Shown here piece after piece: positions 16,077 through 32,500 of a stretch of 64,000 nucleotides of DNA. How positions within the stretch are numbered: position 1 is the stretch's first letter; each line of letters starts with the position of its first letter. Position numbers and translations under genes: made by a program. Location of the stretch: contig NZ_CP036278.1 of the NCBI RefSeq assembly GCF_007748035.1, positions 434,001 through 498,000 on the forward strand. Reading direction: 5' to 3'. The stretch comes from Aeoliella mucimassa (GTDB taxonomy: Bacteria; Planctomycetota; Planctomycetia; Pirellulales; Lacipirellulaceae). The notes beneath the pieces are model-generated. The model ran no database searches. It was not told the origin of the DNA and saw only the letters and a program-made list of their open reading frames with translations.

Positions 16077-17111
16077 GGCCTTGTTGACTAACTCCACTCG
16101 AACTGTGGAAGCCCGAGTTGGGTGAATTGATTGATGATTTTACAGCGCAAGCGGGCTTCCGTTTGTTGGTTTTCGAATACTCGGTTTTTGAGATGGCTCC
16201 CAAAGCTTTGTTTCACTCGGTACATGGTCGTTTCCGCCAAGCTTCTACGATGATAGCCCACTTCCTCTTTCCAACTCCTACGCCCCTTGCGTCGAATCTG
16301 ACGAATTGCCTCGTCCCGGGGCAAAGGCTCCTCCGCAGAGTTGCCATGTTGTTTGATCTTGGCGTTGTGCTGCGGCGGAATCACCGGCTCAATGCCTTCG
16401 GATTCCAGCCCTTCATAAACCTTCCACTTGTCGTAACTACCGTCGCCGTGAAACTTTTTTACGGGCTGCTCCACCTGCTCCAGCATTTCGGGAACCGCAT
16501 CGGCATCGTGGCAACTGTTCTCGGTCAAAATCTCCGCCACAATCTCGCGGGTGTCAGGATTCACCGACAAATGCAGCTTCCGCCATGTCCGCCGCTTCGA
16601 CTTGCCATGCGTCCGCATCTTCCATTCGCCCTCGCCAAACACTTTCATGCCGGTGCTATCCACCACGATATCGATGTCGCCCCTCTTGTTAGCGATATCG
16701 AGCGAAACATTCAGCTTGCTGGCTCGCTTGGCGAGCGAAGAATAATTGGGAATCGCTGCCTCGACGCCCAACATCGCCACCAGCGAGCGGCCGAATCCCT
16801 CAGTCTGCCGATAGGGAAGTTTCAGCAGTTCGCGAATCGTCAGCAAGCACTCGATCGCCGTATCGCTGAAGACAAAAGGGCGACCGACTTTTGTCTGGTC
16901 GTTAGGATGTTCCCAGTTCTCCAACGCCTCGTCGCTAAACCAAATAGTGATGTTTCCACGCTCGATGAGCGACTTGTTATACTCCTTCCAGTTCGTGACT
17001 TTGTAGGTTCGTTTTTCTTTCGTAGCCATGTTCGATCTCCGTAAAAAAGGTACGTGGTTCCATTCCACGTTAGTTTTTACGGAGGTTTGTGACTAATTGT
17101 TCAACAAGGCC
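16077..17111 (-). mobile_element. IS5-family (IS903-like) element, copy 1, 1035 bp
   Basis: The ends begin GGCCTTGTTGA, close to the known IS903 tip. The 9-bp target duplication CCGTGTAAT lies at 16068-16076 and 17112-17120, as for IS903. It carries one transposase and has the same length as copy 2 at 20123-21157, in opposite orientation. It interrupts the toxin gene. Confidence 0.93.
16088..17029 (-). CDS. IS5-family (IS903 group) transposase, copy 1
   Basis: A 313-residue DDE transposase starting at an ATG preceded by GGAG. The N-terminus VTNWKEYNKSLIERGNITIWFS is characteristic of the IS903 group. The catalytic set is Asp in DIVVDSTGMK, Asp in FHGDGSYDK and Glu near the C-terminus in RRSLAETTMYRVKQSFG. 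The protein is identical in sequence to copy 2. It looks intact. Confidence 0.93.
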   Translation of the reverse strand: MATKEKRTYKVTNWKEYNKSLIERGNITIWFSDEALENWEHPNDQTKVGRPFVFSDTAIECLLTIRELLKLPYRQTEGFGRSLVAMLGVEAAIPNYSSLAKRASKLNVSLDIANKRGDIDIVVDSTGMKVFGEGEWKMRTHGKSKRRTWRKLHLSVNPDTREIVAEILTENSCHDADAVPEMLEQVEQPVKKFHGDGSYDKWKVYEGLESEGIEPVIPPQHNAKIKQHGNSAEEPLPRDEAIRQIRRKGRRSWKEEVGYHRRSLAETTMYRVKQSFGSHLKNRVFENQQTEARLRCKIINQFTQLGLPQFEWS

Positions 17112-20122: not shown

Positions 20123-20149
20123 GGCCTTGTTGAACAATTAGTCACAAAC

Positions 20150-20197
20150 CTCCGTAAAAACTAACGTGGAATGGAACCACGTACCTTTTTTACGGAG
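20150..20197 (+). promoter_or_regulatory. Hairpin hiding the transposase ribosome site
   Basis: CTCCGTAAAAA (20150-20160) pairs perfectly with TTTTTACGGAG (20187-20197), enclosing a second stem ACGTGG/CCACGT (20164-20182). The 3' arm contains GGAG, the Shine-Dalgarno of the ATG at 20205. A transcript entering from outside would fold and hide it. The same structure exists in copy 1. Confidence 0.65.
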
Positions 20198-20204
20198 ATC
20201 GAAC

Positions 20205-21146
20205 ATGGCTACGAAAGAAAAACGAACCTACAAAGTCACGAACTGGAAGGAGTATAACAAGTCGCTCATCGAGCGTGGAAACATCACTATTTGGTTTAGC
20301 GACGAGGCGTTGGAGAACTGGGAACATCCTAACGACCAGACAAAAGTCGGTCGCCCTTTTGTCTTCAGCGATACGGCGATCGAGTGCTTGCTGACGATTC
20401 GCGAACTGCTGAAACTTCCCTATCGGCAGACTGAGGGATTCGGCCGCTCGCTGGTGGCGATGTTGGGCGTCGAGGCAGCGATTCCCAATTATTCTTCGCT
20501 CGCCAAGCGAGCCAGCAAGCTGAATGTTTCGCTCGATATCGCTAACAAGAGGGGCGACATCGATATCGTGGTGGATAGCACCGGCATGAAAGTGTTTGGC
20601 GAGGGCGAATGGAAGATGCGGACGCATGGCAAGTCGAAGCGGCGGACATGGCGGAAGCTGCATTTGTCGGTGAATCCTGACACCCGCGAGATTGTGGCGG
20701 AGATTTTGACCGAGAACAGTTGCCACGATGCCGATGCGGTTCCCGAAATGCTGGAGCAGGTGGAGCAGCCCGTAAAAAAGTTTCACGGCGACGGTAGTTA
20801 CGACAAGTGGAAGGTTTATGAAGGGCTGGAATCCGAAGGCATTGAGCCGGTGATTCCGCCGCAGCACAACGCCAAGATCAAACAACATGGCAACTCTGCG
20901 GAGGAGCCTTTGCCCCGGGACGAGGCAATTCGTCAGATTCGACGCAAGGGGCGTAGGAGTTGGAAAGAGGAAGTGGGCTATCATCGTAGAAGCTTGGCGG
21001 AAACGACCATGTACCGAGTGAAACAAAGCTTTGGGAGCCATCTCAAAAACCGAGTATTCGAAAACCAACAAACGGAAGCCCGCTTGCGCTGTAAAATCAT
21101 CAATCAATTCACCCAACTCGGGCTTCCACAGTTCGAGTGGAGTTAG
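20205..21146 (+). CDS. IS5-family (IS903 group) transposase, copy 2
   Basis: A 313-residue protein identical to the copy 1 transposase (same DDE residues in DIVVDSTGMK, FHGDGSYDK and SLAETTMYRVK). The ATG at 20205 follows GGAG by seven bases. An upstream GTG at 20166 lies inside the leader hairpin and is unlikely to be used. Transcription opposes yhbH and spoVR. Confidence 0.93.
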   Translation: MATKEKRTYKVTNWKEYNKSLIERGNITIWFSDEALENWEHPNDQTKVGRPFVFSDTAIECLLTIRELLKLPYRQTEGFGRSLVAMLGVEAAIPNYSSLAKRASKLNVSLDIANKRGDIDIVVDSTGMKVFGEGEWKMRTHGKSKRRTWRKLHLSVNPDTREIVAEILTENSCHDADAVPEMLEQVEQPVKKFHGDGSYDKWKVYEGLESEGIEPVIPPQHNAKIKQHGNSAEEPLPRDEAIRQIRRKGRRSWKEEVGYHRRSLAETTMYRVKQSFGSHLKNRVFENQQTEARLRCKIINQFTQLGLPQFEWS

Positions 21147-21212
21147 TCAACAAGGCCTTGTTGATTTATGAATGTATCCGATCAGAAATCATCCTTCATA
21201 AATCATAAATGC

Positions 21213-22328
21213 TTACTTTCCTGTTCCCAAGAAGATCTTGATCGCGTCGAGTATGGCATCGCGGTCGGGCATTTCGGCCGTGACGAGCGTGTTGTACTGG
21301 TCGCCGAATCGTCCTTCGAGGTGGCCAAGGTATTCGCCGCTGCCGTAGGGACTTTCGACTTGCCCGTAGCAGTAGAGGTTCACATGCGGCAGGATGCGTT
21401 CCTTGAGTGTCGCAAACGCCCGCTCGTTGTCCTCGCCCCAGTTGTCGCCATCGGAGAACTGGAAGCAGTACAAGTTCCAGTCGGCTGGCGGCAGCTCGGT
21501 TTCGATGATTTCGGCACACACCTTATACGCACTGCTGATGCGTGTGCCGCCGCTCTCGCGGGTGTGGTAGAACGTGTGCTCGTCGACAGCCTTGGCGACC
21601 GCGTCGTGAATGATGTACCGCGTTTCGAGCCCGCCATACTGCTGTGCGAGCCAGGTGTCGATCCAGAATGCGGCAGTGCGGACGATCTGCTTTTGCTCGT
21701 CGGTCATCGAACCGCTGACGTCCATCATGTAAATCACGGCCGCGTTCACCTCGGGCTTGGTGATCGTGGTCCAACTGCGGTACTGCTGATCGCCGCGGAT
21801 GGGGGTTACTTTGGGATCGTCGGGCGTGTAGCTCCCAGTGGAGATCTGCCGCTTGAGGGCCTTCAGGTAGGTTCGCTTCTTGTGACGCAGCGACTCGGGG
21901 CCGGTCGAGCGTACGCTGTTGTACTTGGCCTTCTCCTGCTCGATCGAAGCGGTCCCCTTGGGCTGAATGTTCGGCAGTTCCAGCGCGTCGCCGAGGATGT
22001 CGGCCAGCTCTTCGAGCGTCATGTCGACTTCCATCAGGTGCCCGCCGCCGGGATCGCTGCCAGCCTCGCCCGGCCCACCAGGCTGCGGCTGGCCCCCTTT
22101 GCCAACAGGGGTACCTTCCTGACCATCCCCCTGACCGACGCCGCCGTTGCCGTTATCGCCAAAGCGGAATCGCGGCACATCCAGCTGCGGCAGCGGAATG
22201 CTCACCAGGTCTTTGTTCTTGCGACCAATCATCTCGCCATGCGAAATGTACTTCCGCAGATTCTCGCGGACCTTCCCGCGGACAATCTGACGAAACCGGC
22301 GTTGATCGCGTTCGATTTTAAGGGACAT
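21213..22328 (-). CDS. yhbH: YeaH/YhbH family protein (DUF444, von Willebrand A-like)
   Basis: A 371-residue DUF444 protein, partner of the PrkA/YeaG kinase in stress and starvation responses. The N-terminus [20 protein letters not shown] and HGEMIGRKN are family-typical. A Gly/Gln-rich linker (about 75-115) follows. The MIDAS-like site [10 protein letters not shown] lies near residue 203 and [13 protein letters not shown] near 290. The ATG at 22328 is chosen because the frame upstream is only translated repeat DNA (Gln-Leu-Pro-Thr-Pro-Asn-Ser heptads). No Shine-Dalgarno is visible; the leader is the heptad array. Second gene after prkA. Confidence 0.93.
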
Positions 22329-22340
22329 GCGGTTGGGGGA

Positions 22341-22401
22341 GTTGGGAGTTGGGAGTTGGGAGTTGGGAGTTGGGAGTTGGGAGTTGGGAGTTGGGAGTTG
22401 G
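22341..22401. repeat. Heptanucleotide array, unit GTTGGGA (about 8.7 copies)
   Basis: Near-perfect tandem 7-bp units directly upstream of the yhbH start codon (12 bp gap). Seven is not a multiple of three, so copy number changes shift any upstream frame and alter leader length. Confidence 0.92.
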
Positions 22402-22412
22402 TGCGGCTTCGT

Positions 22413-22448
22413 GTCATCCTGAAGGAGCTTCCAGCGACCGAAGGATCT
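22413..22448 (-). repeat. REP-like repeat, copy A
   Basis: In the minus-strand sense it begins AGATCCTTCGGTCGCTGG and ends AGGATGAC. The pair ATCCT/AGGAT can form an outer stem. It overlaps the stop codon of the GIY-YIG gene. Confidence 0.75.
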
Positions 22449-22738
22449 CACGCTTCGCTGTTCACTTCCGCCAGGTCTCGCCAGGTGGGGTTCATCGCTT
22501 CGATCAACGCGATCTTTTTGCGTCTCACCCACCCTTTAATTTTCTTCTCTGCCTCAATGGCCTCGTTTACGTCGGTAAAGGTTTCAAACCAAACCAAGCG
22601 AGTGGTTTTGTACTTCTGGGAGAAGCCCGGAACGACTCCGCTCTTGTGTTCTTGGACTCTCCGCTCGAGGTCGTTCGTCATGCCGGTATACAGCACGCCA
22701 GAATGGCTCGCCATGATGTAGGTGTAGTATTGGTTCAT
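22448..22738 (-). CDS. GIY-YIG domain nuclease, small single-domain type
   Basis: A 96-residue protein starting MNQYYTYIM. The GIY-YIG core is present: YTYIM (variant of GIY), LYTGMTNDLERRVQEHK with catalytic-type Tyr and Arg, then the conserved KTTRLVWFETF, a helix with Glu (EAIEAEKKIKGWVRRKK), and a C-terminal Asn-Pro-Trp. The family relates to UvrC and homing endonucleases; small versions have unknown substrates. The gene sits in the prkA-yhbH spacer, same strand, with its stop inside a REP-like repeat and the inverted copy just upstream of its start. It is not part of the usual prkA operon. Confidence 0.88.
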   Translation of the reverse strand: MNQYYTYIMASHSGVLYTGMTNDLERRVQEHKSGVVPGFSQKYKTTRLVWFETFTDVNEAIEAEKKIKGWVRRKKIALIEAMNPTWRDLAEVNSEA

Positions 22739-22761
22739 GGTTGTCAGCCGATGGTGAGGCA

Positions 22762-22797
22762 AGATTCTTCAGTCGCCGGAAGCTCCCTCAGAATGAC
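22762..22797 (+). repeat. REP-like repeat, copy B (inverted to copy A)
   Basis: It begins AGATTCTTCAGTCGCCGG and ends AGAATGAC. Compared with copy A the outer stem ATCCT/AGGAT has become ATTCT/AGAAT, a compensated change. Confidence 0.75.
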
Positions 22798-22811
22798 ATG
22801 CATGTTCTCCC

Positions 22812-22905
22812 CACTAACAACGAACCACTAACAACGAACCACTGACCACTAACAACGAACCACTGACTACTGACTACTGACTACTGACTACTGACTACAA
22901 ACCAC
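22812..22905. repeat. Heptanucleotide array between prkA and the GIY-YIG gene
   Basis: About 13 consecutive 7-bp units: alternating CACTAAC and AACGAAC, then CACTGAC, then four TACTGAC units, ending at the prkA stop codon. It is similar in style to the GTTGGGA array on the other side of the GIY-YIG unit. Confidence 0.9.
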
Positions 22906-24963
22906 CTACTCTTGCTTACTATCTCCTCTCGCAAAAATGCTGGCGACGTAGTTCAGCACGTCGGTCGCACTTTCTTGATCGTAGCCGTAGTTGCGGATCA
23001 GGCGTTCTTTCACGATGTCGATCTTCTTTTGCGTGTCGGCGTCGACCACGTTCGAAACCAGGCTTGTTAGCTTGATGGTGTCTTTCTGATCTTCAAACAG
23101 CTTGAGTTCCAGAGCTTTGTAGAGCCGTTCGTTCGATTTGTAATCGAACCGCTTGCCGTCCATCATCAGCGCGGCAATGTAGTTCATGATCTCCCGGCGG
23201 AAGTCGTCTTTGCGGCTTTCGGGAATATCAATCTTCTCTTCGATACTCCGCATCAGTCGCTCGTCGGGCTCTTCGTACTGCCCAGTAAAGGCGTTCTTCA
23301 CTTTCTCCTTCTGCGTGTACGCTTTCACGCTATCGATGTAGTTGCCGCACAGGCGGGCGAGGGCGTCTTCGTCAGCGGCGATGGCACGTTGCACTTCGTT
23401 TTTCACGATGCTTTCGTATTCCTCCTTTACCACCGAGAGGAGCTCTCGATACTCCTGCTTGGTTTCTTCGTTGTTGATCAGACTGTGATGCTTGAGGCCC
23501 CCTTCGAGTTCGTTCAGCACCATGAACGGGTTGATGCTTTTCGCTTCGGGGTGGGCCACCAGAGCGTTCGAGATCTTATCCTGCACGTAACGGGGGCTGA
23601 TGCCGAGCATGCCCTCGTTGACTGCCTGGTCGCGAAGTTCCTTGATGTTCTCTTCGGTGAAGCCAGGCAACGTCTTGCCGTTGTAGAGCTTGAGCTTCTG
23701 CAGCCGAGTCAGCCCGGCGTGCTTTGGTTCTTCGAGCCGAGTGAGGATCGCCCACATCGCGGCCATCTCGATCGTGTGCGGCGCAATGTGTTTGCCTTTC
23801 ACGGTGCGATTGTTGTAGTCCTTCTCGTAAATCTTGATCTCGTTGTCGAGGATCGTCACGTACGGAATGTCAATCTTTACCGTGCGGTCGCGGAGTGCTT
23901 CCATGAACTCGTTGTTCTGCAACCGTTTGTATTCGGGTTCGTTGGTATGCCCGATAATCACTTCGTCGATGTCGGTCTGGGCAAACTTCTTCGGTTTGAT
24001 GCGGTGTTCCTGGCTCGCGCCGAGCAGGTCGTACAGGAACGCGACGTCGAGCTTCAGCACTTCGACGAACTCAATCAGCCCACGATTGGCAATGTTGAAC
24101 TCGCCATCGAAGTTGAACGCCCGGGGGTCGCTGTCGCTGCCGTATTCGGCGATTTTGCGATAGTTGATGTCGCCGGTCAGTTCGGTTGCATCCTGGTTTT
24201 TTTCGTCCTTCGGTTGGAAGGTGCCGATGCCGACACGATCTTTCTCGCTCAGCAGCAGGCGTTTCACGCGAACGTCCTGGATCACGCGGGTCCAATCGCC
24301 ATCGTACTTTTTGAGTCGCTGCTGGTACGTGAAACGGCAGTACGGATCGAGTTCGCCGGTAATCTTCACGCGGAAGTCATGCTCGCCTTTGCCTGCATTC
24401 AGTTCCTGTTCCACGTCGCTGCGGAACCGCTCGGGAATTAGGTGCAGTGGCTCCTCGTTCATCGGGCACCACTCAATGGCGTCCAAATCTTCCGGATCGT
24501 CTTCGCTCACCCAGCCAAGCGTGTATAGCGCCCCGTCGTCAGTGGCCGAGTAGCTTTCGAGACCTTTCTTCAGCAACCGGGCGATGGTGCTCTTGCTGCT
24601 GCCGACCGGGCCGTGGAGCAACAACACGCGGCGCTCGATGCCGTAGCCATTTGCTGCGCTCTCGAGGGCGTTCACCAGGTGCTCGAGCGATCCGCGCAGC
24701 CCGAACACGGCGTCTTTGCCGCCGTTGTCGGGGTCGTCGAAGAAGCGGTAGTACTTCTTTTTCTCGCGTCCTCGCTCGACGATGTCGACTCCGTAGGAGT
24801 TGATCATGTCGTACAAACGCTGATAGGCAGTGCGCGTCACCTTGGGATTAGCCCGCACCAGGTCGAGATACTCTTCGAAGGTGCCGATCCAATTCTTGCG
24901 GCGAAACTGGTCGCGGTCCTGGCGTTGGGAAACGAGGTCGATGATCGTTCGTCCGTCGCTCAT
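22906..24963 (-). CDS. prkA: PrkA/YeaG serine protein kinase
   Basis: A 685-residue PrkA family protein: an AAA+ domain followed by a PrkA C-terminal kinase-like domain. The Walker A motif is GPVGSSKST (118-126), in [18 protein letters not shown]. Family blocks such as [33 protein letters not shown] and [14 protein letters not shown] are intact. It phosphorylates proteins during starvation or sporulation-like stress and acts with YhbH and SpoVR. Normal family length is about 640. First gene of the original prkA-yhbH-spoVR unit, now interrupted after its stop codon by repeats and a GIY-YIG gene. Confidence 0.95.
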
Positions 24964-31849: not shown

Positions 31850-32152
31850 TTGGTGTTTAGATTCTCTCCAGTTTTCGCTGGGAATTGGCCACTTGTGGTG
31901 TTCTAATGGACAGGTTGTCGTTGGCTGTCGGCTTTCAGCTATCGGCTGTTGGCTTTTTTAGTGATTGGAGGTTTGTGAGATGTGATGCTTGTTTTGAACT
32001 CGAACGACTAGCGACGCGCAGGCGAAATGGTTGCTTGCGTGGGCGTTTACTGCTGCGCGCATGGTAATGCAGGTGATGGGTCTGCGTCGCTGGAAGCTCC
32101 TGGACCACATCCTACGGGCGCTCGTTGGTGACACGTTCGAAGTGGCCAGCTG

Positions 32153-32190
32153 AGATCCTTCGGGTCGCTGGAAGCTTCCCGCAGGATGAC
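32153..32190 (+). repeat. REP-like repeat, copy C (solitary)
   Basis: AGATCCTTCGGGTCGCTG begins it and GCAGGATGAC ends it. It matches the repeats bounding the GIY-YIG gene, including the TGAGATCC context. It forms ATCCT/AGGAT plus CGGG/CCCG stems around a short loop. Confidence 0.75.
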
Positions 32191-32260
32191 ATCCGCTTAC
32201 CCGCATCCCCAAAACTTCCCTGACCCCCGAATCCTGATCCCTGACTCCTCCCCAAAATAC

Positions 32261-32500
32261 TTTCCCATGGGTGGGAATCTATTTTGGGCAACTATCGCGG
32301 AGGTGTTGATGCAACTTGTTATCTATCAACGACTTGCGATGCTTTCCCAGCGGGAAAATAGATTCCCACTCGATGCGTTATTGGGAATGGGAATCTATTC
32401 GAGGGTGAAAACCACTGGTTTTATAGAGTGCGTGCAGATTCAATTTACCCATCGGTGGGTAAATTGGGAAACTATTTGCCCAGCAGTGGGAATCTATATC
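32261..32500. repeat. Cluster of hairpins sharing the motif GGGAATCTAT
   Basis: GGGAATCTAT occurs at 32273-32282, 32389-32398 and 32488-32497, with one reversed copy at 32358-32367. Between them are hairpins TTCCCA/TGGGAA (32262-32277), TTTCCC/GGGAAA (32343-32357) and CAATTTACCCA/TGGGTAAATTG (32441-32466, TCGG loop). It lies just past the 3' end of the leftward gene at 32502. Confidence 0.75.

Follow-up and report, generated by a model that had tools for sequence, protein, structure and literature searches.

A family of small single-domain GIY-YIG proteins of Neisseria, reportedly named Ssn by Chenal and colleagues in Nature Communications in 2025, is reported to cleave its repeat in single-stranded DNA and to control uptake and transformation by cutting repeat-bearing strands. 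An association between a gene and dispersed palindromes also characterizes REP-RAYT systems, in which a patchily distributed gene is bracketed by inverted copies of a tagged palindrome. A further group of such palindromes, the CGTC-tagged REP super-family, carries the tag CGTC, or its variant TGTC, and a stem whose first two pairs read AT (Di Nocera et al., 2013; PMC3733652). According to this survey, these REPs are predominantly dimers with the tags outside ('HH' type) and 'apparently lack a dedicated transposase'; the four families have 8-9 bp stems, loops of 4-5 and CCA-like tails, and Neisseria CGTC-1 is equated with dRS3. The species listed there include none with tyrosine transposase genes flanked by CGTC repeats. 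The dRS3 repeat itself is given as ATTCCC(N8)GGGAAT, with almost 700 copies in meningococcus (PMC3898611).

The window analysed here, a stretch of 64,000 nucleotides from the Planctomycetota bacterium Aeoliella mucimassa, contains a small stand-alone GIY-YIG gene between two copies (A and B) of an imperfect palindrome (Table 1). The copies are inverted around the gene and the GTC tags of both face away from it. They are the two pattern matches of the window; in 100 shuffled versions, two matches never occurred (mean 0.00). Copy B lies 23 bases upstream of the ATG of the gene (22738); a TTG further upstream, at 22762, would extend the protein to 104 aa. A preliminary description of this DNA had reported that inverted 36-bp palindromes bound the gene, and this is borne out: the cores of A and B are identical at 31 of 36 positions, and the stem change from ATCCT/AGGAT in A to ATTCT/AGAAT in B is compensated on both sides, as claimed. 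Its statement that the stop of the gene lies inside a copy is marginally right, since the TGA (22448-22450) shares just one base, the last, with the 36-bp core of A, yet lies wholly within the 40-nt model match. The third full copy that it had seen standing alone was recovered about 9 kb from the cassette (copy C). What it had called a partial copy near 32086 is present as a core fragment, and a core like it also occurs upstream of an IS200-like copy at another locus (L220). A longer composite repeat of intergenic DNA, with segments that contain GGGAATCTATT, recurs in the genome, in the window at 32151-32460 and elsewhere at L220, L222, L223 and L224.

Table 1. Palindromes, GIY-YIG gene and neighbouring features in the window
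Feature	Position	Strand	Basis or remark
Palindrome copy A	22411-22450 (36-bp core 22413-22448)	plus	63.7 bits, model R1; at gene 3' end
Stand-alone GIY-YIG endonuclease gene, 96 aa from ATG	22448-22738	minus	PF01541 match
Palindrome copy B	22760-22799 (36-bp core 22762-22797)	minus	65.8 bits, model R1
Palindrome copy C, isolated in an intergenic region rich in repeats	32151-32192	minus	52.3 bits, model R1
Palindrome core fragment	about 32086-32100	plus	direct reading of sequence
Array of GGGAGTT heptamers (x 9.3), outer side of copy A	22337-22401	plus	
Tandem arrays, 7-, 14- and 21-nt units, outer side of copy B	22811-22905	plus	
prkA (PrkA kinase), cassette neighbour	22906-24963	minus	PF08298 + PF06798
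DUF444 (yeaH-like) gene, other cassette neighbour	21213-22328	minus	PF04285

Judging from domain score, motif residues and predicted fold, the window protein is a member of the GIY-YIG endonuclease superfamily. The 95 aa after the initial Met score 57.7 bits against the Pfam GIY-YIG model (PF01541; curated cut-off 22.6). The conserved motif residues of GIY-YIG enzymes are two Tyr, Gly, Arg, Glu and Asn. In an alignment of 32 sequences, from which 14 of the 45 rows first listed were left out, Y6, Y16, G18, R26, H30 and N82 are invariant and E63 is conserved in at least 90%. The AlphaFold2 model based on a 32-row alignment has a mean pLDDT of 90.9 and a pTM of 0.82. Its best fold match in the PDB, and the sole one below E 0.001, is the UPF0213 protein 1zg2 (E 1.6e-5, TM 0.60), which is also the nearest solved chain by sequence; 1ywl (UPF0213) and then Slx1 follow, all with modest scores (TM about 0.5-0.6). 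The structure of an Ssn-like repeat-associated GIY-YIG protein was not found in the PDB. One other GIY-YIG match (E <= 0.001) is present in the same genome, a single contig of 6.6 Mb; this 477-aa frame is UvrC-like by its length.

The homologue in N. gonorrhoeae, which we take to be the published Ssn, shares 36 identities with the window protein over 84 residues (about 43%). It lies in an array of 16 dRS3-type hairpins within 1.5 kb, on a record filed as a 2.17-Mb plasmid that is, from its size, probably a chromosome, and the repeats around the homologous gene of one genome of the window's own family (G036) fit the dRS3 pattern as well. The window repeat differs in that its outer stem is short (5 bp) and its centre interrupted, whereas dRS3 has a long perfect stem. 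Many genomic copies of the repeat with some of them beside the gene, as in the Ssn system, are found here too (93 copies, two beside the gene), which makes the palindrome a putative cognate target. Part of the pairing has probably been established already for Neisseria and homologues by the 2025 work, so that the window would be a further example and not a new kind of system. The preliminary description knew of no established mechanism, which needs correction, since Ssn with its repeat targets was reportedly published in 2025. GTC-tagged REPs, moreover, have been described as a super-family (PMC3733652). The window repeat resembles the latter in its TGTC tag, its AT first stem pairs and its multiple copies, and the HH arrangement is the one found around the gene. 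Its stem, loop and tail fall outside all four CGTC families as these are characterized in the survey, and we therefore file it in none of them. The survey reports no dedicated transposase for such repeats in its account of the super-family; here, the recurrent neighbour is a GIY-YIG gene. In the CC0, CC BY and CC BY-SA literature we found no paper linking this nuclease to these repeats, which says little about what is in print overall.

The palindrome belongs to a family with at least 93 copies in the genome, as detected with a covariance model built from 31 copies (E <= 0.1, weakest 0.0042; 150 of 5540 first-look candidates scored). A plain pattern allowing up to 3 mismatches found 61 copies, against 0 for the reversed pattern. 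The family is mostly located outside genes: among 40 copies checked, the centre of three lies inside an ORF of at least 200 aa, compared with 1232 of the 2200 other positions that were taken from these loci. The hexamer TGTCAT is present in 30 of the 31 aligned copies; the remaining row, that of copy C, is cut just before the T, and the window has TGTCAT there too. The stem consists of the 5-bp outer part plus interrupted inner pairs and, past its end (ATC), is followed by T, then mostly by C or A. The gene pair and 534549/534671 are the only close pairs among the 93 copies, and many tags-outward pairs are present among the listed places of two other genomes (G008 and G020). Heptamer-like strings, as judged by eye, accompany many other palindrome copies of the genome (L003-L032).

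Among 22 distinct rows of 50 matches, double-sided changes affect two of the five pairs of the outer stem. Cells with such double-sided changes number 15, versus 4.5 in shuffled alignments (none of 500 as high), in an alignment that favours the structure by construction. There is no excess of stem pairs with double-sided changes (2 versus 1.3 shuffled, 194/500 as high) or of further stem pair types (7 versus 6.7, 324/500 as high). When the GTC-tagged strand was folded as single-stranded DNA at 37 C, copies A (z -0.15) and B (z 0.84) and the common repeat type (L012, z 0.70) folded no better than shuffles; copy C was the only one tried that did (z -3.08). We thus rejected hairpin stability as evidence for A and B. 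The evidence for a hairpin is the covariation across copies, and the weak folding of A and B counts against a very stable one.

Protein matches were obtained in 17 of 97 genomes, with close homologues (E 5.3e-24 or better) in six, the own genome included, all belonging to its family. The gene is patchy, being present in 6 of 43 family genomes, and in all six it has palindromes on both sides. The nearest tags face outward in five of them and inward beside the G036 gene (L038). The palindromes beside the gene differ in sequence: CCT and TCT stems in the own genome, CCC in G025, TCC in G020, CCC and TCC in G027, and AC-first stems in G024. In G027 the GIY-YIG frame continues through the adjoining palindrome (L037, 1498-1827), so that the predicted protein ends in a C-terminal tail encoded by repeat sequence.

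In this family sample, four or more copies of the palindrome pattern are present in 5 of 6 gene-bearing and 8 of 37 other genomes (p 0.007). Eight of the 13 palindrome-rich genomes have no close homologue, two of them being single-contig assemblies (G017 and G034). The only GIY-YIG frames of seven of these eight are at least 292 aa long; the eighth (G038) has, in addition, one frame of 252 aa and one of 69 aa, the latter with a stop. The preliminary description had regarded a palindrome common in genomes lacking the gene as an argument against its reading, and this is partly what we observe. A strict rule of 'no gene, no palindrome' is therefore rejected, and the repeat can evidently persist in the absence of a resident gene.

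Gene-free palindromes turned up in congeners at two sites (G001 and G028). The site between prkA and yeaH, occupied by the palindrome-gene-palindrome cassette in the own genome, contains a gene-free, tags-outward pair in the congener G001, the tail of the second member being degenerate, and neither palindrome nor gene in the congeners G002 and G003. A gene-free pair is also present in G020, from another genus, in a comparison in which no yeaH start was located for most other genera. The second site, among the 20 of 30 loci that were read, lies downstream of a metallo-hydrolase gene. The cassette is present there in G024 and, beside the same hydrolase gene, in G020; G028, a congener of G024, has a gene-free pair of palindromes in direct orientation; neither element is present in G017, another genome of this genus, whose next gene resembles that of G024 by eye. 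Neither palindrome nor gene is found at this site in G008, a congener of G020. These configurations fit a cassette coming and going at palindromic sites, gain and loss being both compatible with them.

Such sites raise the possibility, which we consider tentatively as a more specific form of our preferred reading, that palindrome, gene and palindrome together form a self-homing mobile unit. The nuclease would cut a gene-free palindrome or pair, and copying during repair would place the gene between the copies. Palindromes standing alone or in pairs would then be by-products or targets, and the whole would resemble a REPtron that works by hydrolysis. GIY-YIG enzymes cleave DNA hydrolytically and are not known to join strands, so that homing would need host repair for the joining step. 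The occupied, gene-free and empty states of both sites and the patchy distribution of the gene point in this direction. They are, however, read from comparisons in which gain and loss look alike, and the hydrolase site of G008 carries no palindrome at all.

The pairing of gene and repeat is general and extends well beyond the window, a conclusion strongly supported by flank enrichment, co-occurrence and clustering of repeat classes on the nuclease tree, all derived from genome sequences. We scanned one genome per species (84,980 species) and analysed the best 80 of 564 confirmed relatives, which are the nearest and not a random sample; the named rows of the nuclease tree bear at least 26 phylum labels. 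A GTC-tagged, AT-first hairpin lies within 400 nt of the gene upstream in 48/77 and downstream in 51/77 of these loci, the 400-nt limit having been set, like those of 60 bits for the gene and 4 copies for the palindrome and the repeat classes, after outputs had been seen. In each of eighteen farther bins, 0-6 loci (of 59-77) have this hairpin. Contrary to what would be expected if GIY-YIG genes usually stood apart from the palindrome, an outcome that the preliminary description had named as fatal to its proposal, 59 of these 80 nearest genes have one within 400 nt, 44 on both sides and 15 on one; the other 21 have none on either side, some flanks being truncated where contigs end. Another motif, with a stem of 6 bp, occurs in 24/77 loci in each near bin versus 0-6 elsewhere.

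The enrichment is specific to the tag. Among 64 heads compared around the same 80 genes, GTC reaches 2.92 per kb near the gene versus 0.16 far from it, and the runner-up, GGA, 0.40 versus 0.07. The tags of the nearest pair point outward in 29 of the 44 loci with hairpins on both sides, in the same direction in 11 and inward in 4. When GTCAT...ATC candidates were collected with no pairing required, 263 of 364 near the gene were complementary at all three free stem positions, with 16 triplets, versus 51 of 354 far from it; one locus can yield several candidates in these counts. In a further 29 planctomycete loci, analysed with the looser GTCA head, a hairpin is present on the left of 24 genes, on the right of 25 and on both sides of 22. 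Plasmid p1 of Planktothrix agardhii carries a homologue (L261, 1501-1785) that is flanked on either side by GTC hairpins; its neighbours are a type IIL restriction-modification gene and the DISARM gene drmA, one on each side.

Could a gene simply have come to lie in repeat-rich intergenic DNA whose hairpins serve as transcription terminators or RNA stabilisers? Larger genes do surround both the gene and the repeats, as such a coincidence would predict, but we regard it as extremely unlikely: among the best 80 relatives the enrichment is confined to the two 400-nt bins beside the gene and depends above all on the GTC head, the repeat type clusters on the nuclease tree (see below), and control genes are rarely flanked. 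Eleven more distant GIY-YIG genes with full flanks have no GTCAT hairpin within 400 nt and, with the GTCA head, two on the left, one on the right and none on both sides. For 27 prkA loci the corresponding figures are two left, one right and none both with GTCAT, and three left, two right and none both with GTCA.

The repeat class of a locus, defined as that of its nearest hairpin, requires 21 changes on the nuclease tree, versus 47.4 after shuffling (none of 200 as low; 90 of 114 labelled), and 9 versus 19.4 within Planctomycetota (none of 300 as low; 36 of 39 labelled). Two of the five classes show no clear clustering (YYC-GA, with 18/500 shuffles as low, and 'other', with 90/500). Phylum labels cluster on this tree as well (37 changes versus 52.3), which makes shared ancestry a possible confounder. 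As the tree is also poorly resolved, with 64 of 111 inner branches open, and the label shuffles ignore relatedness, we speak of clustering and not of strict co-evolution. In 54 of 69 loci, the nearest hairpins on the left and right belong to one class.

Co-occurrence was examined in 392 planctomycete genomes. At least 41 of them contain the gene (60 bits or more), and some genes may have been missed, at most 13 first-look candidates having been scored per genome. Four or more pattern copies are found in 26 of the 41 gene-bearing genomes but in only 19 of the 351 others (odds ratio 30, Fisher p 2.5e-18, relatedness uncorrected). The expectation that genomes with the gene would have the repeat and others not is thus matched as a tendency, with 19 gene-less genomes as exceptions on one side. 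On the other side, 15 gene-bearing genomes have fewer than four pattern copies; 11 of these were inspected, and GTCA hairpins, mostly of other sequence, stand beside the gene in ten and are absent in one. Many nuclease matches, several of them fragments, are present in G184 (13) and G468 (9), where the gene may have multiplied and decayed.

We also considered whether the palindromes are ordinary REPs moved by tyrosine (Y1/RAYT) transposases, the GIY-YIG gene being a passenger. Y1_Tnp genes are present in 42 of 43 family genomes, with 13 matches in the own genome. Of the six full-length IS200-like copies there, which are nearly identical, two are separated from a palindrome by 164 nt, and another palindrome is found about 290 nt from a partial Y1 match. 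The equal 164-nt spacing, however, results from insertion in a separate composite repeat after GGGAATCTATT, and four of the six copies are inserted directly after this sequence. Moreover, none of the 26 Y1 genes of G008 and G034, two palindrome-rich genomes lacking the nuclease gene, has a GTCAT hairpin within 400 nt or the strict pattern within about 1.5 kb; the looser GTCA head is found on the left of one and on the right of one, never on both sides. The lack of CGTC-flanked tyrosine transposase genes in the species listed by Di Nocera et al. (PMC3733652) argues in the same direction. At our locus, the bracketed gene encodes a GIY-YIG and not a Y1/HUH enzyme, and the tag is GTC and not the GTAG of REP-RAYT systems. 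With the 26 Y1 genes unbracketed and the IS200-like spacing otherwise explained, a Y1/RAYT mover appears very unlikely.

The reading that we prefer is that the gene encodes a small stand-alone GIY-YIG endonuclease, probably of the Ssn type, and that the palindromes are its putative cognate DNA targets. Their signature is a 5'-GTC tag followed by a stem that usually starts with AT and whose bases vary in compensating pairs. Given the recurrent adjacency, the enzyme and the repeat very probably work as a pair. The proposal of a nuclease-repeat system made in the preliminary description thus stands as far as the pairing across relatives is concerned, but has to accommodate genomes that possess the repeat and not the gene. 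Most likely, the enzyme would recognise the tag together with the folded hairpin on single-stranded DNA, such as the lagging strand, an incoming transforming strand or an extruded hairpin, and cut there. The cut might feed recombination or repair, by which repeats and gene cassette could spread or be rearranged; alternatively, it might restrict incoming strands that bear the repeat.

The latter outcome corresponds to a control of uptake or transformation, in which the nuclease would shape genetic exchange near repeats by cutting repeat-bearing incoming single strands. The position of the Neisseria relative within its dRS3-type array and the scattering of the repeat outside genes are consistent with such a role, which is reported for Ssn in Neisseria; we consider this function rather unlikely for the window gene. 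More broadly, if the cassettes home themselves, the GIY-YIG genes with tags-outward palindromes could be the dedicated enzymes so far missing for the GTC/CGTC-tagged REP super-family as a whole. A hydrolytic nuclease, and not a strand-joining transposase, would then spread itself and its hairpin repeats, with repeat sequence and specificity evolving together. We put this forward as a tentative proposal. It would bear on a question that the 2013 survey left undecided, namely which enzyme, if any, belongs to CGTC-tagged palindromes (PMC3733652), as the present data tie such repeats to one small nuclease family across many phyla. Matched pairs of enzyme and repeat with different sequences, together with gene-free sites in congeners, allow direct tests of target recognition, of switches in specificity and of the spread of repeats.

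Concerning the surroundings of the cassette, a search of positions 22000-23200 against Rfam (E up to 0.1) gave no family match, a result that is neutral with regard to a role of the hairpins as terminators or RNA stabilisers. Beyond the DUF444 gene, a DDE transposase gene (PF13737, PF01609) is followed by spoVR (PF04293). This transposase is encoded by one (20123-21157) of two 1035-nt copies, located between spoVR and the DUF444 gene; the other copy (16077-17111) is 100% complementary to it and lies in the opposite orientation.
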